From Gemmatimonadota bacterium (lineage in GTDB: Bacteria; Gemmatimonadota; Gemmatimonadetes; Gemmatimonadales; GWC2-71-9), in NCBI GenBank assembly GCA_003222055.1, contig QHUT01000144.1, positions 1-35,255 on the forward strand: DNA of 35,255 nucleotides. The letters are read 5' to 3'. Made by a program: the position numbers and the translations under genes. Below are positions 13,899 to 35,255 of the stretch, in pieces (the first letter of the stretch is position 1; every line of letters begins with the position of its first letter). The notes beneath the pieces are model-generated. The model was given only the letters and a program-made list of their open reading frames with translations. It had not been told where the DNA came from and did no database searches.

Positions 13899-14125
13899 AA
13901 CCGCCTGCTGCGTGCCGATCGGTGTCGGGGCGCGTGCGGTGTCCCGGCGCTCGACGCTGAGGGGTTAGGATGTTGGCGGGATCAGCATTGGGACAATCGG
14001 CAAACGGTCTCCTCCGCCCCTCAGTGGTGAAGAAGGATGCCTCTGCGCTCCGCCGCTGCTGTCGGTCGGCGAGTCCCCTCCTCACGCCCCGCCCGGGGCG
14101 GCGTCGTGTGCTCGAGGCCACCGGT

Positions 14126-16308: not shown

Positions 16309-16315
16309 GGGCACC

Positions 16316-18673: not shown

Positions 18674-18677
18674 TCGG

Positions 18678-19577: not shown

Positions 19578-19711
19578 AGCAGGCAGTCACTGAAGGTCTT
19601 GCAGCGCCGGACACGTCACGAATGTCGCCCATCCGGGTGGTGGCTGCAGGGCTCGTGGGGGACATCAACAGGATTCTCGAATCACGTGGGTTGGTGGCTG
19701 CGCGTGTCTGA
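19547..19711 (+). pseudogene. Out-of-frame C-terminal remnant of the truncated glycosyltransferase
   Basis: Reading from 19547 in the frame two bases ahead of the truncated gene gives EDSVAFASKLKQAVTEGLA and continues to a stop at 19709-19711. This matches the usual final helices of GT-B enzymes (a 'D-x-x-AFA-x-x-L-x-x-A' helix). Together with the missing ~60-80 residues before it, this points to an internal deletion whose size is not a multiple of three, joining near 19540-19550. Confidence 0.62.
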
Positions 19712-19721
19712 GTTCCCTCCG

Positions 19722-20927
19722 ATGCGCGTCCTCGTCCTGCACAATTATTATCAGCAACCGGGGGGCGAGGACCAGATCTTCGCTGCGGAAACACGCCTGC
19801 TGGAAGCGCACGGCAATGAGGTCATCCGTTTCACGATGCACAACGATGTCATACGTGAGCTGGGACCTTTGCACGCGGCCAAGAACCTGTTGTGGAACCG
19901 TGACGTGTACGCTGAGCTTCGCGGACTGATTCGGAAGACACGCCCGCAAGTCATGCACTCCCACAACACGTTTCCACTGATTTCTCCCGCCGCTTACGGT
20001 GCCGCTCGAGATGAAGGGATTCCCGTCGTCCAGACGCTGCAGAACTTTCGATTAGTGTGCGCTAACGCGTTTCTGTTTCGCGAGGCGAAGATTTGCGAAG
20101 ATTGCATCGGTAGACGGGTGATGTGGCCGGCCGTGTGGCACAGGTGCTATCGTGGCAGCGCTGCCGCAAGCGCGGCCGTGATCGCGATGCTGCATTACCA
20201 CCGTGTGCGCCGCACATGGAGCGAGTTGGTGCATCTCTACCTCGCGCCGACGGAATTCGTCCGTGGCAAGCTGATCGAGGGCGGACTGCCGCCGGAGAAG
20301 GTCCGGGTCAAGCCCAACTTCGTCGATTGGAACTGCGTGCCGCCGACGAACAGGGGAAAGTACATGCTGTTTGTCGGTCGGCTGTCGCCGGAAAAGGGGG
20401 TTCGCACACTGCTCGCCGCGTGGAGTTCACGTTCCGACCTGCCTCCGCTCCGCATTCTCGGGGACGGACCGCTACGTGGGGAGGTTCAACGGACCGTTGC
20501 ACAAAGCTCCCGCGTGCAATGGCTCGGGCATAGGTCTGGTGAGGAAGTGCAGGCCCAGATGCAGGATGCGAGTGCGCTCCTGTTTCCGTCAGAATGGTAC
20601 GAAGCGCAACCGCTCGTGGTGATCGAAGCGTATGCCGCCGGACTTGCGGTGATCGCGAGCGCGATCGGAGCGGCCGCATCGCTCATCGAACCGGGTCGGA
20701 CCGGATTGCTTCATGCGCCTGGGGAATGGGCTGATCTCGCGGACAAAGTGCTTTGGGCCCGGGAACATCCGAATGAGATGCGGGCCATGGGTGCGACTGG
20801 ACGGGCTCGCTTCGAGGAGCGATACACGCCTGCGATCAATTATCGCTTACTGCGCGACGCGTACGCGTGCGCCGCGGCGACCCGGCGGGATCTGGGCTCG
20901 CGCACACAGTCCAGATCCACCGTGTGA
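19722..20927 (+). CDS. GT4 family glycosyltransferase
   Basis: A 401-residue GT-B enzyme beginning MRVLVLHNYYQQPGGED, the typical N-terminal beta strand and glycine loop. The acceptor domain has HSHNTFPLISPAAY. A cysteine group (CANAFLFREAKICEDCIG ... HRCYRGS) is characteristic of one GT4 subgroup and may bind a metal or be structural. The donor domain has LFVGRLSPEKGVRTLL, ILGDGPL and the E-x7-E motif (E294, E302 in EWYEAQPLVVIEAYAAG). It should add one sugar to the lipid-linked repeat unit on the cytoplasmic face. The ATG at 19722 is chosen from the family N terminus; the frame is open to 19599 and no ribosome site is seen. Confidence 0.92.
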   Translation: MRVLVLHNYYQQPGGEDQIFAAETRLLEAHGNEVIRFTMHNDVIRELGPLHAAKNLLWNRDVYAELRGLIRKTRPQVMHSHNTFPLISPAAYGAARDEGIPVVQTLQNFRLVCANAFLFREAKICEDCIGRRVMWPAVWHRCYRGSAAASAAVIAMLHYHRVRRTWSELVHLYLAPTEFVRGKLIEGGLPPEKVRVKPNFVDWNCVPPTNRGKYMLFVGRLSPEKGVRTLLAAWSSRSDLPPLRILGDGPLRGEVQRTVAQSSRVQWLGHRSGEEVQAQMQDASALLFPSEWYEAQPLVVIEAYAAGLAVIASAIGAAASLIEPGRTGLLHAPGEWADLADKVLWAREHPNEMRAMGATGRARFEERYTPAINYRLLRDAYACAAATRRDLGSRTQSRSTV

Positions 20928-20935
20928 CACCTCGC

Positions 20936-22474
20936 ATGCGTGAACAGAGTCGGGATGCGCCACTAACCAACTCGTTGAGCGAACGCGCCGTCACCGCAGG
21001 CCAATGGCGTGTTGGGTCGATGCTCCTGCAGGGCGTGCTGCAGTTCGGCGTCGGTGTTCTGCTGGCCCGCCTCGTCCCGCCGGGAGACTTTGGTGTAGTT
21101 GCACTCGCCGTCGTCGTGGTGGGCTTCGCTACGATGCTGGCCGACCTCGGCCTGGGGCCGGCGATCGTGCAGCGCCGGCAGCTCACGGATTCACACCTCC
21201 GGGTCGCGTTCACGGCGTCCATGCTCGTGGGGCTCGGGATGGCGGCGGCGCTCATGCTGCTTTCCCCATGGATTGGCGCTCTGGCGCGCGACCACACGCT
21301 TCCGGCCGTGCTGCGGGTGCAGGGACTCCTGTTCATCGCTACGGGATCGGGCACGGTGGCCCGCGCGCTGCTGCAGCGCAATCTCGATTTCCGACGGCTC
21401 TTCGTCATTGAGGTGGCGAGCTATACGGGGGGATACGCGTTGGTGGCCGTCGGCGGCGCACTCGCCGGGTGGGGGGTCTGGAGTTTGGTGCTCGGGTCGC
21501 TGGTGCAGGGCCTGCTGTCCAGTGTACTAAGTCTGCTCGCGGTACGTCCGCCCGTTCGTCCCCTCTTGTCGCGTGCTGAGCTCAGACAACTCCTCGGGTT
21601 CGGCCTCGGGGTCAGCGTCAACGGCGTCGTGAGTTACGTGGCGCGCAGCGGCGACAACTTTCTCGTCGGGCAGTTATTGGGGGTCACCGCGTTGGGGCTC
21701 TACAGCCGGGCCTTCAACTTGATGATGCTCCCGCTGACCTACATCTGTAGCGCGCTGCCGAACGTCCTCTTGCCCGCGTTCGCGGAGATCCAGGGAGATC
21801 GCAGGCGGGTCGGTCGTGGCTTCCTTGTGAGTTTGCAGCTCACCGCGATGACCACCGCTCCGATCATGGCCGGGATGATCGTCTCTGCACCGCACATGAT
21901 TCGGGGGCTGTACGGTGAGCGTTGGGCAGGAGCCGTGCTGCCGCTGCAAATCCTCTGTCTCGTCGGCCTGCCACGCGCGGTGCACTCCCTTGCCGGCCCG
22001 GTGAACCGCGCGTGTGGACGCGTCTATACCGAACTGTGGTTGCAGATCGGGTTTGCGACCGCGGTGCTCGCAGGCGCCGTGGTCGGAGCAACGCGCGGGA
22101 TTACGGGGGTCGCCCTGCTCGTCTCACTGGCGATCGCACTCATGTACGCCGCGATGGCTCGCCTCGTGCTCACCATCACGGCGGTCACTTGGCGCGCGTT
22201 CGCCATGGCGCAGGTGCCGGGGTTGTTTCTCGGGTTGGTCACTGCGGCGGTGACGATCCCACTGCGGCTTGCTCTCGAATACACCGGGGCGCCGCACCTC
22301 GTCACCTTTGTCGCGCTGCTTCTGGGAAGCGCAGGGTCCGTGCCCTTGGGGATTCTCCTCCTTCCCGTGCCGATGCGCCCGATGGAGCTGTTCGCCCATC
22401 TGCATGCGCCACTCCGTAGGCTCCCGGCCCCGCTGCGGATCGGGCTCACCCACCTGCTTCGGACACCTGCGTGA
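20936..22474 (+). CDS. Wzx-like oligosaccharide flippase (MOP superfamily)
   Basis: A 512-residue, highly hydrophobic protein with about 12-14 predicted membrane helices. It starts with the family signature ERAVTAGQWRVGSMLLQGVLQFGVGVLLARLVPPGDFGVVALA, followed by ADLGLGPAIVQRRQLTDSHLRVAF. It contains the central SGDNFLVGQLLGVTALGLYSRAF motif of RfbX/WzxC-type lipopolysaccharide transporters. It would move undecaprenyl-linked repeat units across the inner membrane. The ATG at 20936 lies 8 nt after the GT4 stop; the frame is open further upstream, but that part overlaps the transferase. The gene's TGA overlaps the GTG of the next gene. Confidence 0.92.
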   Translation: MREQSRDAPLTNSLSERAVTAGQWRVGSMLLQGVLQFGVGVLLARLVPPGDFGVVALAVVVVGFATMLADLGLGPAIVQRRQLTDSHLRVAFTASMLVGLGMAAALMLLSPWIGALARDHTLPAVLRVQGLLFIATGSGTVARALLQRNLDFRRLFVIEVASYTGGYALVAVGGALAGWGVWSLVLGSLVQGLLSSVLSLLAVRPPVRPLLSRAELRQLLGFGLGVSVNGVVSYVARSGDNFLVGQLLGVTALGLYSRAFNLMMLPLTYICSALPNVLLPAFAEIQGDRRRVGRGFLVSLQLTAMTTAPIMAGMIVSAPHMIRGLYGERWAGAVLPLQILCLVGLPRAVHSLAGPVNRACGRVYTELWLQIGFATAVLAGAVVGATRGITGVALLVSLAIALMYAAMARLVLTITAVTWRAFAMAQVPGLFLGLVTAAVTIPLRLALEYTGAPHLVTFVALLLGSAGSVPLGILLLPVPMRPMELFAHLHAPLRRLPAPLRIGLTHLLRTPA

Positions 22475-23607
22475 ATGCCTCGGCGCGAGAGCGGGGCCTG
22501 TTGTGGGGTAGCCTCTTCAGGCAAGTGGTAAGCGCTGGGCCCTCGATCGTGAGTCGCTCAATGGTCACCCTGGCGGGAGAGGTGCTGCGGCTCGTGCCGC
22601 TCCGAGCGCTCCCGCGCCTCATCGCACGAGACGTCGTGGGTTTCTGCTACCACACGGTGTCGGAGTGTCGACAGCCGGCCGTCAGTCATCTGTACTCGTG
22701 TCGGACACCGGCGCAATTCGAGCGCGATCTCGAGTTCGTGTGTCGCGAGTACGAGCCGGTGCCCTATGACGACCTCGTCGCGGGACGTGTAGCCGCAGCA
22801 ACGGGGCGGCCCAGGGCGATCGTCACGTTCGATGACGGGTTGAAGGAATGTTACAGCACCATCCGTCCGCTCCTGCTCAAGTACGGGGTCCCGGCCGTGT
22901 TCTTCGTGACCACCGGACTTCTCGACAATCGGCGGTTGTTCTACCGCAACAAGGTTTCCCTGTGCATCGACACATATCTGCGCCTGTCCCGCACCGAGGC
23001 GGACGCCGCCCGTAGCGACCTTGAGGATCTCATGGGCGCTCCCGTCAGGGGTTGGAGGGACCTCGCGGTGCACCTTCACAGGCTGACGCCGCAAGCCGAG
23101 GACTTGCTCGATGCCGTCTCCGCGCGTTTGGGGGTCGACGCGGACGCCTATCTGCGAACGAACGCTCCCTACCTCACCACCGCCCAGGTTCGCGGACTCG
23201 CAAGAGACGGCTTCACCATCGGCGCCCACGGCCTGGCGCACCTGCGGCTATACTCGATGACGCCGGCAGAGGCCGAAGCCGACATCGTGAGCTCTTGCGA
23301 GACCGTTGCTCGGATGGTGGATAGGCCGACCGTGCCGTACGCTTTCCCGTTTGATGGCCGGGGCGTAAGTCGGGAAATGCTCCGGGCGGTTCGCTCCCAG
23401 CATTCGCATGTAGGGCTATTTTTCGACTCCCGCGGGTTAGCTCGCGACCGGGACTTCGTCATCAACCGAATCGTTGTCGACTCCTCAACGCGCGCGACAC
23501 ACCAGGTCACCAACCTGCCCGCGTATGTACGGAACGCCTATGCCGTGGAACTGGCGCGCGCCGTGATCGCCGCACGGATCCTCCGGTGGCGTGGAGACGG
23601 TGTGTGA
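22471..23607 (+). CDS. Polysaccharide deacetylase family protein (NodB domain)
   Basis: A 378-residue product translated from GTG 22471, which overlaps the flippase stop. NodB landmarks: VGFCYHTVS (H61 region), the catalytic/metal motif TFDDG (119-123) in RAIVTFDDGLKECYS, the His pair in IGAHGLAHLRL, and YAFPFDGRG. Such enzymes remove N- or O-acetyl groups from polysaccharides. No clear signal peptide is seen, so action on cytoplasmic lipid-linked intermediates is possible. The spacing between TFDDG and the HxxxH motif is long (about 130 residues), due to an inserted helical segment. The stop overlaps the next start (GTGA), so it belongs to the EPS operon. Confidence 0.88.
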   Translation: MNASARERGLLWGSLFRQVVSAGPSIVSRSMVTLAGEVLRLVPLRALPRLIARDVVGFCYHTVSECRQPAVSHLYSCRTPAQFERDLEFVCREYEPVPYDDLVAGRVAAATGRPRAIVTFDDGLKECYSTIRPLLLKYGVPAVFFVTTGLLDNRRLFYRNKVSLCIDTYLRLSRTEADAARSDLEDLMGAPVRGWRDLAVHLHRLTPQAEDLLDAVSARLGVDADAYLRTNAPYLTTAQVRGLARDGFTIGAHGLAHLRLYSMTPAEAEADIVSSCETVARMVDRPTVPYAFPFDGRGVSREMLRAVRSQHSHVGLFFDSRGLARDRDFVINRIVVDSSTRATHQVTNLPAYVRNAYAVELARAVIAARILRWRGDGV

Positions 23608-24578
23608 GCCCCGATCTGGGCCAGCCCAGCTCCACCGGCATCGCCGCTCTGTCGGTGGCCGTGTGTATCGCGACCTATCGTCGGCCGGGCGGCCTGGAGC
23701 GTTTGGTAGACGGCCTCGGTGCCCTCCAGTTTTCCCGCTCGGCGCAGCCGCTGCTCGATGTCATCATCGCCGACAACGACCCGCAGGGCTCCGCAGCCGC
23801 ACCGTGCGCCGAGCTGGCCCAGACGTGCCGATGGCCGATGGTGTACGTGGTGGACCCGCGGCGCGGGATTCCGTACGCGCGCAACGCCGCGGTATGCGCG
23901 GCGCGCGAGCGGGGCGCCGAGTTGATTGCGTTCATCGACGACGACGAAGTGCCGGAACCCGCTTGGCTGGACGAGCTGCTCGCCGTGATGGCCACCTATC
24001 AGGCCGACGTGGTCACTGGTCCGGTGCTGCCGCTGTTTGAGGTCGAAGCGCCCGCGTGGGTGCTGCGCGGCCGGTTCTTCGAGCGCCCGCGTTACCAGAC
24101 CGGCGTGCGCTTGGATCGAGCGTACACCGGCAATGTCTTGTTGCGCGCTCGTGTCTTAGACACACTGTCCGGACCGTTCGACGAGCGCAAAGCGCTGTCC
24201 GGCGGGACCGACACACACCTGTTTCTCCAGGTCGCGGATGCGGGGCATCGGATCGTGTGGGCTGATGGCGCCGTGGTGCACGAATGGAACCCACCGAGCC
24301 GTCTCACCGCGCGCTGGCTGGTGCGGCGCGCGTTCCGTGCGAGCAGCAATTGGAGCAGCTCCGAACGGGAGCTTCGTGCATCACTGCCTGTGCGTGTCGC
24401 GCGGATTGCTAAGGCGTTCGGAAGGATGGCGCAGGGCATGATCCTGCTTCCGCTTGGGCTGCTGGCCGGACGGCATCTGCTTGTTCGCTCGCTGCGATGC
24501 CTGGCGATGGGCGCGGGATCCTTGGCCGGACTGGTCGGTCGTGAATATGACGAATACCGGGTTACCCATGGGAGCTGA
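23604..24578 (+). CDS. GT2 family glycosyltransferase, copy 1
   Basis: A 324-residue GT-A enzyme starting at GTG 23604, with GGAG 7 nt upstream and a 4-nt overlap with the deacetylase stop. Motifs: VAVCIATYRRPGG, IADNDP, RGIPYARNAA, the metal-binding FIDDDE (DDD 112-114), and GGTDTHLF (200-207). In its neighbour this last motif is the usual GGEDTD. The C-terminal region ends in hydrophobic and basic segments (GMILLPLGLLAGRHLLVRSL) that may contact the membrane. Over its whole length it is closely related to the next gene, so the pair arose by tandem duplication. It should add a sugar to the repeat unit. The E-to-T and D-to-H changes in the acceptor/base motif suggest changed specificity or activity. 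Confidence 0.92.
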   Translation: MSPDLGQPSSTGIAALSVAVCIATYRRPGGLERLVDGLGALQFSRSAQPLLDVIIADNDPQGSAAAPCAELAQTCRWPMVYVVDPRRGIPYARNAAVCAARERGAELIAFIDDDEVPEPAWLDELLAVMATYQADVVTGPVLPLFEVEAPAWVLRGRFFERPRYQTGVRLDRAYTGNVLLRARVLDTLSGPFDERKALSGGTDTHLFLQVADAGHRIVWADGAVVHEWNPPSRLTARWLVRRAFRASSNWSSSERELRASLPVRVARIAKAFGRMAQGMILLPLGLLAGRHLLVRSLRCLAMGAGSLAGLVGREYDEYRVTHGS

Positions 24579-25509
24579 GACGATCGCACCGGGTCGCACC
24601 CCACGCCTCTGCATCTGTGTCCCGACCTACAAGCGCCCGATCGGGTTGGCACGTCTGCTCCGAAGCATCGATCAGCTACGGTTCGAACGGGTCGGCGAGC
24701 CAGCGATCGAGGTCATCGTCGTGGACAACGACCCCGAAGCGTCGGCGGCCACAACGTGCGCAGAGCTTACCCACACGTCGCGCTGGCCGATCGTGTATGC
24801 GCCTGAGCCCCGACGGGGAATTGCATTCGCCCGCAACGCCGCGGTGCGCACGGCCCAGTCGGGCGGAGCCGAGTTGATCGCGTTCATCGACGACGACGAG
24901 GTGCCGGAACCCACCTGGCTCGACGAGCTGCTCGCGGCCATGGGCGAGTACCAGGCCGACTTCGTCGCCGGCCCGGTGCTACCGACGTTCGAGGGCCACG
25001 TGCCCGGATGGATCCTGAAGGGCAAGTTCTTCGAACGCCCGCGGCACCCGACCGGGACGCGCCTGGAACAAGCCGCCACGTGCAACGTGCTTCTACGCAC
25101 TCGCGTCTTCTACGAGCTGGGCCACGGCTTCGACGAGGGGCTGGGTCTCGCCGGCGGCGAGGACACCGATTTCTCTCTGCGCGCCTGGCACGCGGGCTGT
25201 GTGATCGTTTGGGCGGACGCCGCGATCGCTCACGAATGGAACCCCGTGAGCCGCGCACGAACGGCGTGGTTGCTGCGTCGCGCGTACGCCGTCGGCAACA
25301 ACTGGGGAGCGTTCGACCAGAGGCTCCACCCGCGGTTTCGTGGGGCGATGCGAGGGCTCGCGAAAGGGCTGGTGTCGCTGCCGGCGTCCGTCGTCCGGGG
25401 GCGGCACTCCATCGTCCAATCGCTTCAACTCGTGGCCGTCGGCGTGGGCTATCTGGCGGCGAGGGCCGGGTTCCGGTTCCCCGCATACCGGCACACTGAT
25501 GGTCACTGA
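24568..25509 (+). CDS. GT2 family glycosyltransferase, copy 2
   Basis: A 313-residue paralogue of the preceding gene, overlapping its end. An alternative ATG at 24547 would add 7 residues; neither start has a clear ribosome site. Motifs: LCICVPTYKRPIG, VVDNDPEAS, RGIAFARNAAV, FIDDDEVPEPTWLDELL (DDD 108-110), FFERPRHPTGTRL and the canonical GGEDTDFSLRAW (196-207), which carries the catalytic-base Asp. A C-terminal hydrophobic patch is shared with copy 1. It is part of the EPS operon and should extend the lipid-linked oligosaccharide. Donor and acceptor are unknown. Confidence 0.92.
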   Translation: MGAETIAPGRTPRLCICVPTYKRPIGLARLLRSIDQLRFERVGEPAIEVIVVDNDPEASAATTCAELTHTSRWPIVYAPEPRRGIAFARNAAVRTAQSGGAELIAFIDDDEVPEPTWLDELLAAMGEYQADFVAGPVLPTFEGHVPGWILKGKFFERPRHPTGTRLEQAATCNVLLRTRVFYELGHGFDEGLGLAGGEDTDFSLRAWHAGCVIVWADAAIAHEWNPVSRARTAWLLRRAYAVGNNWGAFDQRLHPRFRGAMRGLAKGLVSLPASVVRGRHSIVQSLQLVAVGVGYLAARAGFRFPAYRHTDGH

Positions 25510-26827
25510 CTCGGGCTCCGGGCAAGGCTGGAGCAGCCACTCCGACACTGCCCCGACGCCCATGGCGCGCCACCTGCTCATTCGCAAGATGCTGCGCGCT
25601 GGAGAGGTCTGCGCAACCGTTGTCGCATTGTTCGTCATCTCGCGGGCGGTCTTGCCGCTATTGCTGTGGGGCAGTGCCGAACTCGCGCGCGATACCGAAC
25701 CGCCTGTACTCATTGAACGGCTCCCTTACTGGCTTATCTATGCCTTTACAACGCTGCAATGTGTGCTGCGCCCACGTCAGCTGCTGCGCGCATTGGCCGA
25801 GAACCCGTTCGTAGCTGCCGTCGTCGCGATTGCCCTGCTCTCCACGTCCTGGTCGGTAGATCCAGGCACGCTGCGGCGCGCCTTCCAGTTGGGGATGTCG
25901 ACGTTGTTCGGCCTTTACTTAGCGTCGCGATATCGGTCGAGGGAGCTGTTGCGACAGCTAGCGATCGTACTCGGCGTGAGCGCGGTGCTGAGCGTTCTAT
26001 TCTCACTCATGCTACCTGAGTACGGCTTGGCACCCAACGAAGTGGCTTGGCAGGGTGTATTCACGCACAAGAACACGCTTGGACAAGCGATGCTCCTGGC
26101 AACCATAGTCTTCACGGTCGCAGCGGAACGCGGGAACGGTTTCCGATTCCTTGCCTGGGTGGGCACGGCCCTTGCGATCGCCCTTATCGTTCTGTCGCGT
26201 TCCATGACCGCCGTGCTCGTCCTCGGAGCGCTTGCTGTCGCGACGCCGTTGGCCCGCCTCTTGCGCCAAGGACGTGCTAAGTCCTTTGTGCTGCTGCTTG
26301 CCGTCTGCTGCGCGCTCTCGGTCGCCCTGTTGGTTGTCGTGAGAGACCGCCAGCTCGTCCTGAGTGCATTAGGCAGGGATGTCACGCTTACCGGTCGTAC
26401 TGCCCTTTGGGGGGAGGTCATCCAACGAATCGCGGACCGGCCGCTGCTTGGCTATGGTTACGGCGCGTTCTGGGTCAACGGTGCGGGGCCAGCCGAAGCA
26501 CTGCGCGCTGCCATCGGATGGGACACGCCGCATTCCCACAACGGCTTCTTGGACTTCTCGCTCGATCTCGGCCTGCTCGGATTGAGCGTTCTTGCCACCG
26601 GGCTTGCCCTTGCGGTGCGACGCGCTTGGAAACGATGGAGCCGCGATCCGAGTGCTGAAGCCCTATGGCCGCTTGTGTTCCTCGTAACCACCATACTGAT
26701 CGACCTGACGGAGAGCCCGCTGTATCAAGGGGGTCTCGTATGGCCATTGTTTGTCTTCGCCGCTACCGTCAGGGCCAAGCCAGCATTCGTTGGAGCCATT
26801 TCCAGCACCGGGCTCATTGATTCATGA
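25499..26827 (+). CDS. O-antigen polymerase/ligase family protein (Wzy-like)
   Basis: A 442-residue polytopic membrane protein with about 10-12 hydrophobic segments. Two signatures of the O-antigen ligase/ExoQ polymerase family are clear: the periplasmic-loop motif VFTHKNTLGQAM, and PHSHNGFLDFSLDLGLLGL after the large loop with TGRTALWGEVIQRIADRPLLGYGYGAFW. It would join flipped repeat units into the polymer on the periplasmic side. The ATG at 25499 overlaps the GT2 gene by 11 nt; MARHLL at 25562 is an alternative start. It is the last + strand gene of the main operon, and its stop overlaps the 3' end of the convergent FkbM gene by 14 nt. Confidence 0.88.
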   Translation: MVTDSGSGQGWSSHSDTAPTPMARHLLIRKMLRAGEVCATVVALFVISRAVLPLLLWGSAELARDTEPPVLIERLPYWLIYAFTTLQCVLRPRQLLRALAENPFVAAVVAIALLSTSWSVDPGTLRRAFQLGMSTLFGLYLASRYRSRELLRQLAIVLGVSAVLSVLFSLMLPEYGLAPNEVAWQGVFTHKNTLGQAMLLATIVFTVAAERGNGFRFLAWVGTALAIALIVLSRSMTAVLVLGALAVATPLARLLRQGRAKSFVLLLAVCCALSVALLVVVRDRQLVLSALGRDVTLTGRTALWGEVIQRIADRPLLGYGYGAFWVNGAGPAEALRAAIGWDTPHSHNGFLDFSLDLGLLGLSVLATGLALAVRRAWKRWSRDPSAEALWPLVFLVTTILIDLTESPLYQGGLVWPLFVFAATVRAKPAFVGAISSTGLIDS

Positions 26828-27584
26828 CGAAAGTAAAGTTCCACCTCTCTGTCTTGACCAGCTTATACCCGTGCTTCTTCAACGTCTTGATCGTGTCCAT
26901 GAATCGCTTCCGATCGAACCGATCTATGGAGTGCCCTTCGTCAAACTCGACCAAAAGACAATCTGGGAATATGCGATCGGAGATCATCTGTTCGAGAACC
27001 ACATACTCCGCCCCCTCGATATCCAATTTCAGGACATCGACGCGCTCGATGGCTTTGCTCTCCATGAATTCGCGGAGAGGAACGCACTCGGCAAGAAAAT
27101 GATCCTCCGTATGTTGCAGATTTACGAGCGAATAGCTGACGTGGCTCGGGTTCCTCGGCGCAAAGAATTTTAGCCGCTCTCTTCGCGACCACAACCCGAC
27201 TGGTGTGAATATGAAGCGCTCCTCGTCAAACACAGGCGTCGCATAGTCGTGATAGTTCAGGTCTTTGACAAGACCGCCGGATGCTTGCTGCAGAGAGTTG
27301 AGAACTGCCGAGACGTGCGCTACGGCCCTCGGCGTAGGATCCACCGTATAGACCGTCACGCCACGACCGACGAGCGAGATGTCAAATGAAATATCCTCGC
27401 CGGCGCCAGCGCAGACCGCGATCGCCCTCGACTTCAACAGGCGCGCGGGCAGCCACCATCCGCCGTCGCCGCTCCCCATCCGGATGAGATCGTCGGGACT
27501 TGCGTCGAGGAGGAAGTAGTTCCGGACCCGCCGGTCGAGTTGGACCAGCCGTCGGACGGCACGCTTCAACATCTCGCTGACCAT
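26814..27584 (-). CDS. FkbM family methyltransferase
   Basis: A 256-residue SAM-dependent methyltransferase. The SAM-binding region is AIAVCAGAGEDISFDISLVGRGVTVYTVDPTPRA; the FkbM hallmark is VDVLKLDIEGAEYVVLEQM, followed by CLLVEFDEGHS. In polysaccharide loci this family often O-methylates sugars. It is encoded opposite to the EPS operon and converges with the polymerase gene. Base composition is clearly less G+C-rich than that of the operon, as in the adjacent epimerase gene, which suggests a separately acquired cassette. An internal ATG 12 nt downstream (MLKRAVRRL) is an alternative start. The target sugar is unknown. Confidence 0.9.
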   Translation of the reverse strand: MVSEMLKRAVRRLVQLDRRVRNYFLLDASPDDLIRMGSGDGGWWLPARLLKSRAIAVCAGAGEDISFDISLVGRGVTVYTVDPTPRAVAHVSAVLNSLQQASGGLVKDLNYHDYATPVFDEERFIFTPVGLWSRRERLKFFAPRNPSHVSYSLVNLQHTEDHFLAECVPLREFMESKAIERVDVLKLDIEGAEYVVLEQMISDRIFPDCLLVEFDEGHSIDRFDRKRFMDTIKTLKKHGYKLVKTERWNFTFVMNQ

Positions 27585-27787
27585 CGCGACTATGGTGCCA
27601 CTCTTAGATCTTCATCATTGTTCATCGCTTCTCCGTAGATGCTCATTAGCGTATCGTGCCGGCGCATACATTCACTTCACCTTGGCGTTTTCGGCTTCCG
27701 AGTCCCTCGCCCCGCTCGCGCGCTGGCCCGCCGGGCGACAGATTGGAAACATCGCACCCTCTTGCGAGAAAGGACATCTCGGAGGTC
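27585..27787. other. Divergent intergenic region
   Basis: These 203 nt lie between the divergent FkbM and epimerase genes and should carry both promoters. No clear -35/-10 pair was found. The first half is A+T-richer than most of the window. GGAGG at 27781-27785, just before the epimerase ATG, is the only clear signal. Confidence 0.35.
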
Positions 27788-28735
27788 ATGGCTAGAATCT
27801 TGGTCACAGGCGGACTGGGTACGGTTGGCAAGGTACTGGTCTGGACCCTCAACAAGCGTGGGCACGCGGTCAAGGTATCCGGGATAGAGCACCATCACGA
27901 ACCGGACTATGTGCGATGTGATGTCGGGAGCTACATGCAGCTCTCACGAATCTTCGAGAATGAGGGTTTCGATTTCGTGTATCATCTCGCAGCCGAGTTT
28001 GGGCGGTGGAACGGTGAGGACTACTACGACCGCCTCTGGGTGTCCAACGTCGTCGGCACGAAGAACCTGCTGCGTATGCAAGAGAAGTACGGCTTCCGGC
28101 TGATCCATTTCAGCAGTTCCGAAGTCTACGGTGACTACGACGGGGTCATGACGGAAGACGTGATGGACAAGTACGAGATTCGCCAGCTAAACGACTATGC
28201 GTTGACCAAGTGGGTGAACGAGCAGCAGATCATGAACTCAGCCACAATGCATCACACGCAGTCCGTCCGCGTGCGCTTGTTCAACACGTACGGACCCGGC
28301 GAGTACTACTCGTCGTACCGCAGCGTGATTTGCGTCTTTATCTACCGTGCCTTGAAGGACCTGCCGTATAAGGTCTATCTCGGCCATCACCGGACCTCCT
28401 CCTATGTGACCGACACGTGCGAGACGCTCGCAAATATCGTTGACAACTTTAAGCCGGGTGAGGTCTACAACATCGGGGGGACGGAGTACCATGACATCAA
28501 GACGGTGTCTGATATGATTCTGGACTACCTCAAGAAGAAGGATACGCGCGTAGAGTATCTCCCCGCGGAGGCCTTCACGACTCGCGACAAGAAGGTCAGC
28601 CTGGACAAGGCGCTTCGCGATCTAAGCCATAGTCCTAAGGTTTCTCTGGTATCAGGCATAGCGCGCACTATCGATTGGATGCGCGACGTGTACGTCAGCA
28701 AAAAGGCACTGGTCCGGCTTGAAGAGTACCTCTGA
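27788..28735 (+). CDS. NAD-dependent epimerase/dehydratase (extended SDR)
   Basis: A 315-residue extended short-chain dehydrogenase acting on a nucleotide sugar. It has the Rossmann motif GGLGTVG (8-14), VYHLAAE, HFSSSEVYGD (catalytic Ser region 109-111), the YxxxK pair Y137/K141 in DYALTKW, and the substrate-side RLFNTYGPGEYYS. It resembles UDP-glucose 4-epimerase and dTDP-glucose 4,6-dehydratase relatives in surface polysaccharide loci; the sequence alone does not decide which. Start: ATG 27788 with GGAGG only 2 nt upstream (tight spacing). It converges with the UDP-GlcNAc 2-epimerase gene, 11 nt apart. Composition is lower in G+C than the main operon. Confidence 0.9.
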   Translation: MARILVTGGLGTVGKVLVWTLNKRGHAVKVSGIEHHHEPDYVRCDVGSYMQLSRIFENEGFDFVYHLAAEFGRWNGEDYYDRLWVSNVVGTKNLLRMQEKYGFRLIHFSSSEVYGDYDGVMTEDVMDKYEIRQLNDYALTKWVNEQQIMNSATMHHTQSVRVRLFNTYGPGEYYSSYRSVICVFIYRALKDLPYKVYLGHHRTSSYVTDTCETLANIVDNFKPGEVYNIGGTEYHDIKTVSDMILDYLKKKDTRVEYLPAEAFTTRDKKVSLDKALRDLSHSPKVSLVSGIARTIDWMRDVYVSKKALVRLEEYL

Positions 28736-28746
28736 TCCATTCATCG

Positions 28747-29835
28747 TCATGCGCCCGAGCTCGCCTCGAGCAGGTCTGCCGCGATGCGCTCGGCCGTTTG
28801 GCCATCCCACAGCTCAGGAATGCGACCGCGGCGGCCATCTGCCTGGGCCAGCGCTTCCAGGAGGCTACTTGCGTGCGGTCGCACTAGCCGGTTGGTGCCC
28901 TCGATCACCGTGATCGGCCGTTCGGTGTTCAGGCGGGCAGTGACACACGGCACGCCCAGTGCCGTCGTTTCTTCTTGGACACCACCCGAATCCGTCACCA
29001 CCACGCGGGCGTTTGCCATGAGGCCGAGAAAGGTTCGATACGGGAGGGGTCCCAGCAGGCGGAACCCCGCCGTGGCAGGCGGCAGCTCGAACTCGACCGC
29101 GCGGGATTGGGTCCTTGGGTGTGCGGGGAACAACACAGGTTCTCGGCGCCCAGCTTCTTGCATGGCTGTCCATAGCTGCCGAAGCGTGTCCGGGTGATCA
29201 ACGTTACTGGGCCGATGCAGAGTTACGAGTACGTAGTGCCGTGCCTTGATTTCGTACTCTCGCAGAAGTGTTGCGTGGTCGATCGTCGGTAGCTGCGCGC
29301 GGAGCGTATCGACCATGATGTTTCCGACGAGTCTCACTCGTTCTGTTGAGATGCCCTCGTGCACCAGGTTCTCGCAGGCGTCACGGCTCGGCGCATACAG
29401 TCGGTCCGACAGGCGATCGGTCAATACGCGGTTGATCTCCTCGGGCATGGTCCAATCTCGCGACCGCAGGCCGGCTTCGACGTGTGCGATGGGCACCCCA
29501 GCCTTGGCGGCCACAAGCGCGCAAGCGATCGTGCTGTTGACGTCGCCGAAGACCACGACCCAGCGAGGTGTATGACTGTCGAGGAGACGCTCGAACCGCA
29601 CCATGATGCCTGCGGTCTGCTGAGCGTGCGATCCAGTACCGACCTCGAGATTGACCTCCGGTTCAGGAACGCCGAGCTCCTCGAAGAAACTCCCGGACAT
29701 CGCGTGGTCATAATGCTGGCCGGTATGGGTAATCATGAGCCGGGGCCCCTTCCGCGCTGCGAGCGCCCGATACAGCGGGGCGAGCTTCACGAAGTTGGGC
29801 CGTGTCCCAGCGACCAGCATGAAGTCGAGGTCCAT
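28747..29835 (-). CDS. wecB: UDP-N-acetylglucosamine 2-epimerase (non-hydrolysing)
   Basis: A 362-residue enzyme converting UDP-GlcNAc to UDP-ManNAc. Family landmarks: MLVAGTRPNFVKLAPLYRAL, THTGQHYDHAMSGSFFEELG, VVFGDVNSTIACALVAAK, HVEAGLRSRDWTMPEEINR, LVTLHRPSNVD and TDSGGVQEETTALGVPC. The length is normal. The start at 29835 is chosen from the family N terminus; the frame is open for another 80 codons that are not family-like. On the same strand upstream is a WecG/TagA-type transferase, which in other systems transfers ManNAc or ManNAcA, so the two probably work together. No UDP-ManNAc dehydrogenase (wecC) is seen here. Confidence 0.93.
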   Translation of the reverse strand: MDLDFMLVAGTRPNFVKLAPLYRALAARKGPRLMITHTGQHYDHAMSGSFFEELGVPEPEVNLEVGTGSHAQQTAGIMVRFERLLDSHTPRWVVVFGDVNSTIACALVAAKAGVPIAHVEAGLRSRDWTMPEEINRVLTDRLSDRLYAPSRDACENLVHEGISTERVRLVGNIMVDTLRAQLPTIDHATLLREYEIKARHYVLVTLHRPSNVDHPDTLRQLWTAMQEAGRREPVLFPAHPRTQSRAVEFELPPATAGFRLLGPLPYRTFLGLMANARVVVTDSGGVQEETTALGVPCVTARLNTERPITVIEGTNRLVRPHASSLLEALAQADGRRGRIPELWDGQTAERIAADLLEASSGA

Positions 29836-30170
29836 CGTTGAGTGGGCTTCCGAGCCTTCCCACGTTCCTCTGCTGTGCCGTCCGGCAGACGGCGGTGCGT
29901 TTAGCGTCTCCTCACAACTCTGCTCCGGTATGATGCCAGTCGCGTCCACTGTGCGCCAGGGAGACTTCGAGGTGCTGGGCTCGTGCTCGGGCAGAGTCGG
30001 GTGGCATGGTTGATTCCGCTTGCCGCATTTGTCGTCGCTCGGAAGCGCTTGTGCCGCCACGAGGACCCACCGCAAACAGCGAGGAGGAACCTCACTTGTG
30101 GTATGACCCGCTCCGGCCTTCAGGTCGTTGAGCCTAGACGGTTTGAAGGCGTGTCAGTTTCCAACGGCGC
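29836..30170. other. Intergenic stretch between wecB and the WecG/TagA-type gene
   Basis: No gene is recognised in these 335 nt. On the - strand the wecB frame continues upstream without stops, but its translation is not family-like. No strong promoter, terminator or repeat was seen. The distance suggests wecB may have its own promoter rather than depend on the transferase gene. Confidence 0.35.
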
Positions 30171-30974
30171 TCATCCGTACCCCAGTTCCTTGTTAGGCGC
30201 CGGCGCGTCCATGGGGTTATAGCGCTTTAGCCCCGTCGCCTGCAGGGCCAAGTGCCCGAGGAAGAGTGGGTTCAGGTATAGGTAGCGCCGCCATAACCTG
30301 CGAGGCTCGCGGTACAGTCGATACAACCATTCCAAACCTACGCTCTGCAGTCGGGGGGGAGCCTGCTTCACCAGACCGGCGTGCACGTCGAACGCCCCGC
30401 CCACCGCCAGGATCGGCATCTGAAGCGCCTCGCGATACTCGTAGGCCCAGACTTCCTGCCGGGGACATCCGAGCCCGACGAAGGTGAGCTTGGCGCCGCT
30501 CGATCGGATCCGGGCGATCACGTCGCGCTTTTCGCCCGCCGAAAGCATCCGGAACTTGGACGGCTCTGCTCCGGCAATGCGCAGTCCGGCGAACCGCACC
30601 AGCAGGCGGCGTTGTAGCGCGGCCAGGACCTCCGGACGGCTCCCATACAAAAAGATCGGCAGCCCGCGTGCCGCCGCGGCTTCACACAGCTTGAGCGTGA
30701 GCGTAGGGCCGTAAACCCGGTCCCGGAGCCGCACCCCGTGCAGCCAGTTGAGCGCCCATCGGACCGGCTGCCCATCCGGTACGACGAGATCGAGTCGGTT
30801 CAGCCGATGTCGATGGGTTGGGTCCAGCACCCCCGTCATGATACCGTGCACCGCGAGCGCGCTCACGGTCAGCGGTACACCTCGTTCCGCGCACTGCACG
30901 ACGCGCTCCACGGTGGTCCGGTAGTCCACGCCATCCACCCAGACTCCCAAGACGTTCCGCTTGGTACTCGACAT
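30171..30974 (-). CDS. WecG/TagA/CpsF family glycosyltransferase
   Basis: A 267-residue GT26 enzyme. Signatures: LGVWVDGVDYRTTVERV at the N terminus, TVSALAVHGIM, DLVVPDGQPVRWAL (PDGQP 66-70), GPTLTLKLCEAAAARGLPIFLYG and FVGLGCPRQEVWAYE. The C-terminal PRLQSVGLEWLYRLYREPRRLWRRYL helix is the basic appendage that contacts the membrane in this family. WecG and TagA transfer ManNAcA or ManNAc to lipid-PP-GlcNAc. Together with the adjacent UDP-GlcNAc 2-epimerase, this suggests ManNAc in the product. No Shine-Dalgarno site precedes the ATG. Confidence 0.92.
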   Translation of the reverse strand: MSSTKRNVLGVWVDGVDYRTTVERVVQCAERGVPLTVSALAVHGIMTGVLDPTHRHRLNRLDLVVPDGQPVRWALNWLHGVRLRDRVYGPTLTLKLCEAAAARGLPIFLYGSRPEVLAALQRRLLVRFAGLRIAGAEPSKFRMLSAGEKRDVIARIRSSGAKLTFVGLGCPRQEVWAYEYREALQMPILAVGGAFDVHAGLVKQAPPRLQSVGLEWLYRLYREPRRLWRRYLYLNPLFLGHLALQATGLKRYNPMDAPAPNKELGYG

Positions 30975-31322: not shown

Positions 31323-32417
31323 ATGCTGCAACTCGTCTTCACCCTCGATTACGAAATCCATGGCAACGGCGATGGCTGCCCGCTTGAGTTGATGGTTGAG
31401 CCCACCGATCGCATGCTTGATCTGTTCGACTGCTACGGTGCGAAGCTTACCATCATGGCCGAAGTCGCGGAGATCCTTCGGTTTCGCGAGCACGCCGTAA
31501 CTACCGGCCGTGATCAGTTCGGCTACGAGGCCATCGTGGGACAGCTCCGCAGGGCGGTCGCCTCGGCGCATGATGTGCAACTGCACCTTCACCCGAGCTA
31601 TTGCCGCGCAGTTTATCGGGACGGACGGTGGCAGCAGGATTACGCCTCCTACGATCTCGCTCGACTCGGTCATGACCGGCTCGTCAAGCTGATCGGGGTT
31701 GGCAAAGCATACCTCGAGGACACCCTGCGAGGGGCGCGGTCTCATTACACGTGCTCGGTGTTTCGAGCGGGCCATTGGTCGATGCACCCGTCGCGTGATG
31801 TCGTTGAGGCTCTCGCGACCGACGGGATTCGGATCGACACATCGGTGTTCAAATGGGGTCGCCGAGATAGCCTCGTGAAGTTCGACTACGGGGCAGCTTG
31901 GCATAGGTTCGTCCCGTGGCCGATCGACGTTGCCGACGTCTGCAAGCCTGATCCGATGGGCTCCGTCTTCGAGGTGCCGATCTGCGCGGAACATCGACCC
32001 TGGTGGGCGTTCGTGACTCTGTATCGCCTGCACCGTATGCTGCAAAGCCGAGTGCACAGACTCGGTGTTGGCTACTCGGGGAACAAGACCAACTCGATCT
32101 CCTCCATCACCCGTGCCGCTGGCTCGGCATTCAAACGGCACGCCTGGAAGCTCGATTTCAATCAGTGCACTGGACGACAACTTGTGAGGGCCCTGCGCCG
32201 CGCGGAGCGAGAAAACCGCGGCGCCCCGTGCGCCTTACCGATTGTTCTCATCGGTCACTCTAATTTCTTCACTCGCGCGAACGTGCGAAACCTTCGGCTG
32301 GTGCTAGAATATGTCGCCCGCCGTCAGAATCGCTTCGCGTTCGCGAGGTTCGATGAGGTCGACTTTGACGCGATCCGTCGCGGTTTTCATGGGGCACGCA
32401 GCACCGACAACGCGTAG
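31323..32417 (+). CDS. Polysaccharide-deacetylase-fold protein (NodB-like)
   Basis: A 364-residue protein with the layout of a divergent NodB/glycoside-hydrolase-deacetylase barrel. It starts MLQLVFTLDYEIHGNGDG, where D9 and E11 stand in place of TFDD. It then has AHDVQLHLHPSY (H88, H90, likely metal ligands), VFRAGHWSMHPS (third motif) and a late GHSNFF. No signal peptide is present. AGGGG lies 5 nt before the ATG. Similar proteins are often encoded in surface polysaccharide clusters, where they may deacetylate an intermediate; activity is not established by the sequence. It is the second such protein in the locus and is not closely similar to the one at 22471-23607. Confidence 0.72.
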   Translation: MLQLVFTLDYEIHGNGDGCPLELMVEPTDRMLDLFDCYGAKLTIMAEVAEILRFREHAVTTGRDQFGYEAIVGQLRRAVASAHDVQLHLHPSYCRAVYRDGRWQQDYASYDLARLGHDRLVKLIGVGKAYLEDTLRGARSHYTCSVFRAGHWSMHPSRDVVEALATDGIRIDTSVFKWGRRDSLVKFDYGAAWHRFVPWPIDVADVCKPDPMGSVFEVPICAEHRPWWAFVTLYRLHRMLQSRVHRLGVGYSGNKTNSISSITRAAGSAFKRHAWKLDFNQCTGRQLVRALRRAERENRGAPCALPIVLIGHSNFFTRANVRNLRLVLEYVARRQNRFAFARFDEVDFDAIRRGFHGARSTDNA

Positions 32418-32432: not shown

Positions 32433-34778
32433 TCAAGGCTTCGGAGACGAAGCGGTCGGCTGACACGCCAAACCATCGTCGCGAAATGCCGTAGCGTTGA
32501 TCACCTGATTGTCGCACAACAGGATGTTCCCGACAGCCGCAGCTTCGATTCGGAAGCCGTACTTCTGAGGATCGCCGCCCGCGGTCTCGTCAATCAGGTT
32601 GTTCGTGAACAAGTTGGCGGTCCCGGGCGCCTCGACCTTCATGCCGTAGCGGATGACGTTATGTCCACTGTTATGCTGAACAAGCCATCCATTCCCGTCG
32701 AGGCTTACCCACGAGTTGACGTTGTCCAGTTGCTCGACCTCCCCAGTGCCGTCAAAGGTGTTGTCACGGATCAGTCCGTAGTCGCTGCCTGGCTTCACGT
32801 CGATGTGCTCGGCCCGCACGTTTGGGCCCATGGTATTACCGACGACGGCGTTCGAATCGCAGTGATCCGACCCCCCGATGTCCGCCGTGCCGATATAGAT
32901 TCCCTCGCCCCACACTGCCACGGCCACCCCAGTATCCCAAATGGTGCTTGCCTCAATCACGTTGTGCGTGCTGGACGTTTTCAGTTCAATGCCCGCCTGC
33001 CCCGTGTGATGGATCTGGAGATTGTGGAAGTAATCGTGGCTCGCCCCAAAGGCGATGACGGCGCGTAAGGCGTCCGTAATGGTGAAGCCCTCGAACGTCC
33101 AATAGCTGGCCCCATTCAGGGTCAGGCCGTCCCAGCCGGTCAACGAGTTGGCGTCGATGATGGCAGCGGGCGAGCCGTACAATTTGATGCAGTGGGCGGC
33201 GGTGCCAGAAACGTTGACCGCGAACCCCCAGCCGTTCGCGTCGTACGTCCCGTCGGCTAAGTGGATCTGGTCGCCGGCCCGCGCACTATCGAGCGCGGCA
33301 TGGAGGTCATTGGCCGTTGCGACCTCCACGAGCCGGAGATAGGCCGTCTGTTGACATGACGGCGAGAAGCCTGCCGGGTTCGTCACGATGATGGCTGCCG
33401 TGCCGCTCTGCCCTTCGCTCGTCGCCGTGACCGTCACTGAGCCCGCTGCTACGCCGGTCACGACGCCGCTGCTGCTCGCCGTAGCCCAAGCGGTGTTGGA
33501 GCTGGTCCACGTCACTGTGCGACCAGTCAGGATGTTACCGCCCGCATCCTTCACTGTGGCGGCGAACTGCAGGGTCTGTCCCACCAGCACGCTTCCCGAG
33601 GCTGGACTCACGGTCACCGAGGCCACCGGCACTAGCGTCACGTTGATGGACGCTGCCCCGCTCTTCCCTTCGCTGGTCGCCGTGATCGTCACTGCGCCCG
33701 CTGCCACGCCCGTTACCATGCCGCTGCCGCTCGCCGTCGCCGCGCCGGTGTTGGAGCTCGTCCACGTCACCGTCCGCCCGGTCAGGACCTTGCCGCCCGC
33801 ATCCTTCGGTGTCGCGGAGAGCTGCAGCGTCTGCCCTACCGGCACGCTCCCCGAGGCCGGACTCACGGTCACCGAGGCTACTGGCACGTTCGTCACGGTG
33901 ATCACCGCCGTGCCACTCTGCCCCTCGCTCGTCCCCGTGATCGTCGCCGTGCCCGCCGTTACGCCCGTCACGACCCCGCTGCTGCTCACGGTCGCCCAGG
34001 CGGTGTTGGAGCTCGTCCACGTCACCGTCCGACCAGTCAGGGTGTTACCGTCCACATCCTTGGGCGCGGCGGTGAGTCGTAGCGTCTGCCCCACCGGCAC
34101 GCTTCCCGAGGCCGGACTCACGGTCACCGAGGCTACGGGCACGTTCGTCACCGCGATCGCCGTCGTGCCGCTCTGCCCTTCGCTGGTCGCCGTGATCGTC
34201 GCCGTGCCCGCCGCAAGGGCTGTTGCGAGACCCGCCGACGTCACCCTGGCAATCAGCGAATTGGAACTAGACCATGTCATCGCCCGACCCGCCAAAATAG
34301 TCCCGCTGCTGTCCTTCGCAACCGCGGTCAGCTGGATCGTGCCGCCGACCTGCAGGCTTGCCGCAGCGGGGCTCACCGCCACCGAAGCCACGGGCCGCCG
34401 CACTACGCTGACAACCGCAGTGTCTGCTGTCCCGCTCGCTTGGCCGGTCGCGATCACACCGAACTTTCCCGTAGTCGACCCGGCCTGATACTGCCCGTAG
34501 TGCCGCCCGCCGCTGCTGCTCGTGTCGGTGATGCTACCGCCTGTCGTACTCCAGCTCACGTCAATGCGGGCCGTATCACCATCGGCGGTGAACGCCACAG
34601 CGACGAAATCCTGGACCTGGCCTTGATAGAGGGTGATGACATTCGGAGAGACTGCAACGTGGCCGACCGTGACGGCGCCCGTATCGGTGAGGCCTACCGG
34701 CTTTTCGCACGCAAAGGTTGCCGCGGCGGCGAGCGCCACCGTGGCGAGGCAAACCGCGCGATCTGGCACGAACCGCAT
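32433..34778 (-). CDS. Surface protein with four Ig-like (Big_2) repeats and a parallel beta-helix
   Basis: A 781-residue exported protein. The signal segment is at residues 8-24 with Cys24 (AAAATFAC), a possible lipoprotein site. A divergent Ig-like unit lies at ~36-127, four near-identical 85-residue bacterial Ig-like repeats start at 128, 213, 298 and 383, and a right-handed parallel beta-helix spans ~484-760. The helix begins ATANDLHAALDSARAGDQIHLADGTYD, a start typical of chondroitinase-B/PL6-like and related lyases. No catalytic residues were assigned, so polysaccharide binding or cleavage are both possible. I prefer ATG 34778 over the in-frame GTG at 34790, because the c-di-GMP riboswitch ends just upstream. 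Next to an EPS locus, a role as biofilm adhesin or matrix-modifying protein is likely. Confidence 0.88.
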   Translation of the reverse strand: MRFVPDRAVCLATVALAAAATFACEKPVGLTDTGAVTVGHVAVSPNVITLYQGQVQDFVAVAFTADGDTARIDVSWSTTGGSITDTSSSGGRHYGQYQAGSTTGKFGVIATGQASGTADTAVVSVVRRPVASVAVSPAAASLQVGGTIQLTAVAKDSSGTILAGRAMTWSSSNSLIARVTSAGLATALAAGTATITATSEGQSGTTAIAVTNVPVASVTVSPASGSVPVGQTLRLTAAPKDVDGNTLTGRTVTWTSSNTAWATVSSSGVVTGVTAGTATITGTSEGQSGTAVITVTNVPVASVTVSPASGSVPVGQTLQLSATPKDAGGKVLTGRTVTWTSSNTGAATASGSGMVTGVAAGAVTITATSEGKSGAASINVTLVPVASVTVSPASGSVLVGQTLQFAATVKDAGGNILTGRTVTWTSSNTAWATASSSGVVTGVAAGSVTVTATSEGQSGTAAIIVTNPAGFSPSCQQTAYLRLVEVATANDLHAALDSARAGDQIHLADGTYDANGWGFAVNVSGTAAHCIKLYGSPAAIIDANSLTGWDGLTLNGASYWTFEGFTITDALRAVIAFGASHDYFHNLQIHHTGQAGIELKTSSTHNVIEASTIWDTGVAVAVWGEGIYIGTADIGGSDHCDSNAVVGNTMGPNVRAEHIDVKPGSDYGLIRDNTFDGTGEVEQLDNVNSWVSLDGNGWLVQHNSGHNVIRYGMKVEAPGTANLFTNNLIDETAGGDPQKYGFRIEAAAVGNILLCDNQVINATAFRDDGLACQPTASSPKP
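33378..34397 (-). repeat. Four tandem 255-bp Ig-domain repeats
   Basis: Four consecutive 85-codon units (each around PVASVTVSPASGSVPVGQT ... GRTVTWTSSN ... GTATITATSEGQSG) are strongly alike at both protein and DNA level. The last three are the most similar, which points to recent duplication or gene conversion. Repeat number could vary between strains. Confidence 0.88.
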
Positions 34779-34790
34779 AAGCGACCCCAC

Positions 34791-34890
34791 TCGTCGGCGG
34801 CTCGACTGGCATAGCGACTCTCGCGAGGAGAGTTCGCCTTAGCCTCGGGGCTTTGCGTCCCCACCTTTCGGTGGGTTTGCCGTGTATCGG
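34791..34890 (-). promoter_or_regulatory. Cyclic di-GMP-I (GEMM) riboswitch
   Basis: Read on the - strand, the leader shows the full GEMM core in order: CACGGCAAACC (34884-34874), a six-pair stem with the GAAA tetraloop (CCCACC-GAAA-GGTGGG, 34875-34860), the invariant GGACGCAAAGCC (34860-34849) and GAGGCTAAGG (34845-34836, tetraloop-receptor side). A variable hairpin follows (ACTCTC/GAGAGT region), then GCCAGTCGAGCCGCCG (34810-34795), which closes P1 with CGGC. The aptamer ends about 13-17 nt before the ATG at 34778, so control of ribosome access is the likely output. The motif match is direct; the ON or OFF sense is not evident. Confidence 0.93.
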
Positions 34891-35058
34891 AATGGGCCGC
34901 AGCACGGCCCGGAAGCGGTGCTTCGTGGTGGCAAAACCTATTCCGCGCCAGGGAACAGCTCACCCCTATGATTGTCTTGGCTTGCCGTGCAGGCAGCTTG
35001 ATTGGCTCTAAGGCTCTCAAAATGCTAGATTCATTGCAAAATGCACTGTGCTGTGGCC
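34891..35058. other. Intergenic region between ppc and the riboswitch
   Basis: These 168 nt are A+T-richer than the surroundings and should contain the promoter of the riboswitch transcript. A small stem (gggcc/ggccc, 34894-34910) lies just upstream of the aptamer, and gcattttg is repeated twice on the - strand near 35020-35045. No clear -35/-10 pair or ppc terminator was identified. Confidence 0.35.
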
Positions 35059-35255
35059 CTACCCCGTCGTCCCGAACCCCGCCGCGATGCAGTTGATCGA
35101 CAAGAGCAGCGCCGGTCGGGTGTCTTCCTGGCCGGCCCGATAGCACCGCAACAGGTCGACCTGCTGCCGGCTGACCTGATTGAGTATCGGCAGGCGGCTC
35201 TCGAGGCGCCGGCGGAACTGGGGGAACCGGCGGGCGAGGTCCCCGGACCCCGCGA
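35059..35255 (-). CDS. ppc: Phosphoenolpyruvate carboxylase, C-terminal end (partial)
   Basis: The - strand frame entering from the right edge encodes about 65 residues and stops at 35061-35059. It contains LNQVSRQQVDLLRCYRAG and ends LLLSINCIAAGFGTTG. This matches the end of PEP carboxylase (QVELLRRxR ... LLLTINGIAAGLRNTG), the enzyme that makes oxaloacetate from PEP and bicarbonate. The start lies outside the window. The final residues differ from the usual RNTG. The fragment has no start codon in view and is easily overlooked. Confidence 0.8.
   Translation of the reverse strand, partial: AGSGDLARRFPQFRRRLESRLPILNQVSRQQVDLLRCYRAGQEDTRPALLLSINCIAAGFGTTG

Follow-up and report, generated by a model that had tools for sequence, protein, structure and literature searches.

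What does an RNA sensor of c-di-GMP, a biofilm signal, control in Gemmatimonadota, a phylum of abundant, little-studied soil bacteria? The question is raised by a 35,255-nt stretch of DNA (the window), which makes up the whole of C37, a contig in a draft genome of 3.69 Mb. A contig scan with a peptidase encoded in the window placed the organism in this phylum, the nearest named relatives of the peptidase being soil metagenome assemblies of Gemmatimonadota (72-84% protein identity). A first-pass annotation had proposed that a c-di-GMP-I riboswitch in this stretch directly controls a large Ig-repeat/beta-helix surface protein encoded next to an exopolysaccharide (EPS) locus (Table 1).

A covariance-model search (cmscan, gathering threshold) returned a single Rfam match in the window, to RF01051 (c-di-GMP-I), at 34891 to 34793 on the minus strand. 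Its score of 70.0 bits (E = 6.3e-12) is twice the gathering cutoff of 35, and the match covers the full model from 1 to 87. Every core element named earlier was found in the aptamer sequence, namely, GGCAAACC, the GAAA-loop stem CACC-GAAA-GGUG, GACGCAAAGCC, CUAAGG, and the closing GCCGCC strand. Both G20 and C92, which contact the ligand, are kept, and the third contact base, A47, was deduced from its GCAAAGC context. By sequence and covariance model the element is thus confirmed as a c-di-GMP-I aptamer, which would be expected to bind c-di-GMP. The span first assigned to it, 34776 to 34890, includes the aptamer, the leader, and the start codon; the aptamer alone occupies 34793 to 34891. It lies in the 5′ leader on the same strand as the gene, and the distance from its end to the ATG at 34778, estimated earlier as 13 to 17 nt, was measured as 14 nt. 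An alternative in-frame GTG at 34790 is a less likely start than this ATG. About 165 nt upstream of the aptamer is the end of a same-strand gene (35060 to 35255, minus strand; C terminus LLLSINCIAAGFGTTG), which we take to resemble phosphoenolpyruvate carboxylase. A candidate sigma-54-like promoter 5′ of the aptamer was rejected as a weak match, not above shuffles for the short-leader class.

Table 1. Positions of the riboswitch, its gene, and related features (window coordinates unless a locus or contig is named)
Feature	Position	Strand	Basis or remark
Wzx/Wzy-type exopolysaccharide locus	13970..30974	.	Gene content (see text)
364-aa ORF, tail-to-tail with controlled gene	31323..32417	+	No Pfam match
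Lipoprotein gene, 781 aa, TFAC lipobox, four Big_2 and C-terminal right-handed beta-helix	32433..34778	-	Translation; Pfam
PL31-like (PsAly) right-handed beta-helix domain, EGIY and EHIDVK motifs	32436..33380	-	phmmer to 6kfn_A
Four Big_2 Ig-like repeats	33390..34394	-	Pfam, 186 bits
SD-like GGGG (within GUGGGG)	34785..34788	-	6 nt before ATG 34778; sequence
c-di-GMP-I riboswitch aptamer (RF01051)	34793..34891	-	cmscan 70.0 bits; G20 and C92 kept
GCGGCCCAUUC, candidate anti-SD strand	34890..34900	-	Pairs with ribosome-binding region 34792-34781 in minimum-energy fold
GC hairpin GGGCCG-UGCUG-CGGCCC, immediately 5′ of aptamer	34894..34910	-	Sequence
Terminator-type aptamers with G at the A47 site	L007 5420-5509, 8044-8132; L008 7312-7401; L009 5306-5395		
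80-nt sequence (CTCGCATCGGGTTCTAGGGCGCACGATG...), terminator at end	G000:C10:25707-25786	-	L273; set L270-L297

The exported Ig-repeat/beta-helix protein expected downstream was borne out by the TFAC lipobox, the four Big_2 repeats (186 bits), and the right-handed beta-helix. The C-terminal 315 residues matched PDB 6kfn in a phmmer search (E = 9.6e-28 over 226 residues). This entry is PsAly, a 33-kDa polymannuronate lyase of Paenibacillus sp. FPU-7 that is classed as a PL31 alginate lyase (PMC8618178). Its proposed catalytic residues, Tyr184 and Lys221, and the ligands of the first cation site, Glu181, Glu216, and Asp219 (PMC6796002), are all kept in the window protein, where GEGIY and EHIDVK align with GEGIY and EHIDIK of PsAly. 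The window protein differs from PsAly in being a lipoprotein with Big_2 repeats, and further active-site residues that PsAly relatives conserve (Lys128, His154, Arg156, Asp250, and Lys252) are replaced in it by Arg, Glu, Lys, Ser, and Asp, respectively. We therefore named the domain PL31-like rather than PL31; the active enzyme SjAly likewise lacks His154, Arg156, Asp250, and Lys252 (PMC6796002). Judged by homology, the C-terminal domain is a PsAly homologue with both catalytic residues and the first metal site, and it is predicted to be a lyase. An AlphaFold model of the lyase domain alone (pLDDT 37) was set aside. The earlier suggestion that the protein might be an enzyme trimming the polymer made next door now has real backing, since a polymannuronate lyase of solved structure is a homologue of the domain and the predicted catalytic pair is intact.

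The other suggestion had been an adhesin. On such a reading, the beta-helix would bind the matrix without cutting it, the Big_2 repeats would form a stalk, and c-di-GMP would induce the protein together with EPS. Known c-di-GMP-I targets include the adhesins gbpA (PMC4744006), cap (PMC4933901), and cbpA (PMC7423583), and Big_2 stalks are common to riboswitch targets with unrelated C-terminal domains. However, the catalytic pair and the first metal site are kept in the window protein and would not be needed for binding alone, and we consider such a c-di-GMP-induced adhesin a possibility well short of probable.

The neighboring EPS locus was confirmed as a Wzx/Wzy-type cluster encoding Bac_transf, Wzz/tyrosine kinase, glycosyltransferases, Wzx, a deacetylase, Wzy, FkbM, an epimerase, WecB, and WecG. 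Because the controlled gene converges on the 364-aa ORF, it is monocistronic and adjoins the cluster but lies outside its operon. The window yielded no identifiable gene for uronate synthesis, and for this reason the neighboring polymer may not be the substrate of the putative lyase.

The lyase domain is rare, being found in 4 of 102 family genomes, and a contig scan with the whole protein as query found no relative. The PsAly-like genes of G012 and G087 also adjoin polysaccharide genes, and one of these two is a lipoprotein without Big_2. No riboswitch match was found beside the other PsAly-like copies examined.

How might the aptamer act on its gene? A search for a strict helix followed by a U-tract found no terminator built from the aptamer 3′ strand in the window leader. 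Since the terminator platform is an optional feature of c-di-GMP-I, this is compatible with RF01051 membership. Because the SD adjoins the aptamer and no terminator helix is present, translation control is the best guess for the window copy, and it is plausible from the arrangement of the leader. The same mode of control had been suggested before; the absence of an aptamer-strand terminator is consistent with it, but folding gave no clean RBS switch. A hairpin is present at the equivalent 5′ position in many other short-leader copies (relatives, judged by eye), and GCGGCCCAUUC is a possible anti-SD strand complementary to 34792 to 34781. With the aptamer core insulated in folding, mean SD access was 0.13 to 0.18, compared to roughly 0.2 to 0.5 when free, in most long-transcript models; access varied with the transcript ends, and some ends showed no difference or the reverse. 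Folding of the window copy leans weakly toward an OFF switch, as a predicted direction only, given that thermodynamic folding of so GC-rich a leader is unreliable. It leans away from a rise in expression of this gene with c-di-GMP.

One explanation is therefore an OFF switch serving dispersal, where c-di-GMP closes the RBS and the lyase is made only when c-di-GMP falls, cuts the matrix, and frees the cells. It would fit the insulated-core folding, the ability of GCGGCCCAUUC to pair with the SD region beside the aptamer, and a target that by homology is a lyase and not an adhesin. Against it stand the unreliable thermodynamics, the transcript ends with no or reversed difference, the terminator-type leaders of the same genome, which are predicted ON switches (see below), and the Vibrio cholerae Vc1 riboswitch upstream of gbpA, which is activated by c-di-GMP (PMC4744006). 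We regard an OFF switch with a dispersal enzyme as a serious possibility, though not quite a probable one. Vc1 has the same aptamer sequence and structure as the window element and likewise precedes the gene for a secreted surface protein handling polysaccharide. It belongs to another phylum, however, and its target is not a Big_2/PL31-like lipoprotein. Moreover, transcription of gbpA begins 225 nt ahead of the gene's start, and the aptamer falls within the first 111 nt, compared to 14 nt between aptamer and start codon in the window.

Comparison among leaders gave a mixed picture. Folding for SD accessibility over 40 short leaders showed no consistent switch direction. The upstream 45 nt paired weakly better with their own RBS than did swapped leaders in 25 of 34 cases (p = 0.006, a value inflated by related sequences, and a set outside which the window copy falls). 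No leader orthologous to that of the window was found for a covariation test of the pairing. A conserved expression platform is accordingly not demonstrable for the window copy, as would be expected if the aptamer were a relic, with leader regulation lost and the gene constitutive or controlled at transcription start. Such a loss is very improbable, because a 70-bit full-length match that keeps G20 and C92 and scores above all four terminator-type copies of the same genome argues for selection on the aptamer.

Is the pairing of this riboswitch with a surface protein peculiar to the window? There are six c-di-GMP-I aptamers in the genome, one in the window, three on C77 (two in tandem), one on C35, and one on C64, and the five first genes that they precede all carry Big_2 (5/5). 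With about 22 Big_2 ORFs in the genome and about 3,300 genes assumed, the chance of this is about 1e-11. The C35 target combines Big_2 with a phosphoesterase, and 58 nt farther on a second gene has Big_2 and an Alginate_lyase match just above the cutoff; the C64 target has Big_2 and a weak DUF1565 match; and the C77 target has Big_2/fn3 and a C-terminal domain of unassigned type, for which no PDB or Pfam identity was found. At L007 (1933 to 10087, minus strand), four adjacent genes have in common a C-terminal domain, about 250 aa long and with no PDB or Pfam identity, that occurs in only three genomes of the genus (61 searched). The genome encodes 20 GGDEF domains as a source of the c-di-GMP signal.

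The pattern extends to relatives. In the order-level set, 121 c-di-GMP-I aptamers were found in 44 of 61 genomes, and among the 66 first genes that were lipoprotein or exported candidates, 41 carried Big_2; other targets were STAS proteins, pilin-like proteins, and response regulators. At least one c-di-GMP-I aptamer occurred in 80 of 102 family genomes. Homologues of the window polysaccharide proteins were near 18 of 40 Big_2 targets (one of the 18 being the window itself), compared to 3 of 29 other lipoproteins and 0 of 36 other targets. This comparison was made within the same genomes, related loci are not independent, and since contigs are often short, the counts are lower bounds. Big_2 surface proteins under c-di-GMP-I riboswitches recur across this Gemmatimonadota order. 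The pairing is not unique, because every c-di-GMP-I aptamer in the genome precedes a Big_2 gene and relatives across the order show the same arrangement.

These aptamers are joined to their genes by two main kinds of leader. In the terminator type (CGCUGCUC...GCCGCCAGC), the aptamer 3′ strand pairs with a downstream CGCUGGCGGCCC that leads into a U-run. Helices of at least 8 pairs with a U-tract, counted strictly, were found in 34 of 43 such leaders compared to 1.4% of dinucleotide shuffles, and in 4 of 77 other leaders compared to 2.0%. This ungapped count was used because shuffles also pair well in gapped duplex folding, which was dropped. Because the aptamer 3′ strand also closes P1 (CGCUG/CAGCG), ligand should block the terminator, and terminator-type leaders are predicted to be ON switches. 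In the second type, which includes the window copy, there is no terminator and the aptamer abuts the RBS. At several loci a single gene is preceded by two tandem aptamers, one of the terminator type and one of the short-leader type, and G035 has three terminator-type copies in tandem. A triple-tandem c-di-GMP-I array is already known (PMC4759541): Bc3-5 of Bacillus thuringiensis, which together with Bc2-cap and cbpA resembles the present case in its riboswitch-controlled surface proteins and tandem copies at related loci. The B. thuringiensis targets, unlike that of the window, are Gram-positive collagen adhesins without a lyase domain. G occupies the A47 position in 41 of 44 terminator-type aptamers; this variant was not equated with Rfam c-di-GMP-I-GGC because aptamers matching c-di-GMP-I-GGC carry A47.

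Further features of these loci were observed. First, 21 of 30 terminator-type targets and 0 of 75 others carry a conserved N-terminal signature, F.[HFY]KL..RL, before their lipobox; only five sites occur in this genome, four of them within riboswitch loci, and the signature is possibly an export signal. Second, an upstream ORF of 43 to 70 aa lies between the terminator-type riboswitch and the main gene at L009 (5216 to 5034, minus strand), G001:C33, G004:C39, G009:C112, and G019:C96. Its start carries a PF.FKL..RL signature nearly the same as that of the main protein, and in three loci the ORF ends within an overlap of its stop with the start codon of the main gene. Third, another leader type (GCCCGAUAAGAGCA...) precedes STAS-domain and response-regulator genes (L118, L123, L128, L130, L132, L142, and similar loci). 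A sigma-54-like TGGCAC..CGC motif lies about 43 to 65 nt upstream in 13 of 14 of these leaders, and in several the aptamer 5′ strand, GCCCGA, has its complement, UCGGGC, immediately ahead of the SD. Finally, the aptamers of nine relatives have no evident same-strand protein gene downstream and are followed instead by an 80-nt RNA-like sequence with a terminator at its end; a sigma-54-like -24/-12 motif is located 5′ of all nine. The 80-nt sequence, itself without an Rfam match, is present as a single copy in 33 of 102 family genomes (five of the 33 being weak partial matches) and reaches 100% identity between species within the genus. In about 23 genomes, not including this one, it follows a c-di-GMP-I or c-di-GMP-I-GGC aptamer; in four genomes, this one among them, the aptamer is missing and the sigma-54-like motif lies directly before the 80-nt RNA. 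It is a candidate small RNA gene with an optional, riboswitch-gating c-di-GMP sensor.

Taken together, it is probable that a c-di-GMP-I riboswitch gates, via RBS access, a PL31-like Big_2 surface lipoprotein that acts on an acidic polysaccharide, as part of a wider Big_2 set. The aptamer in the leader of the monocistronic gene would sense c-di-GMP, and access to the RBS directly 3′ of it would set the amount of lipoprotein. The four Big_2 Ig domains would form a stalk displaying a beta-elimination lyase at the cell surface, whose substrate would most likely be an acidic polysaccharide; the matrix that the cell itself makes from the adjacent locus is a plausible candidate. The gene would then be one member of the Gemmatimonadota set of Big_2 surface proteins under c-di-GMP-I riboswitches. 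A bolder version is unlikely but worth stating: a dedicated regulon of Big_2 lipoproteins with polysaccharide-active domains beside EPS genes, terminator-type and ON for most, with the window copy of opposite sense, so that falling c-di-GMP would release a surface-tethered matrix-cutting enzyme. A full-text search, with subscription journals mostly outside its coverage, found no literature joining Gemmatimonadota with c-di-GMP riboswitches, and the recurrent Big_2 regulon is apparently absent from earlier descriptions. The new elements are the phylum, a Big_2 regulon that recurs among relatives, and a predicted PL31-like surface lyase as a target. For Gemmatimonadota, these results suggest that RNA directly links the biofilm signal to surface polysaccharide-active proteins beside matrix genes. 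They also reveal two expression platforms, at times in tandem before one gene, within one bacterial group, and the riboswitch targets form a set open to cloning and testing.
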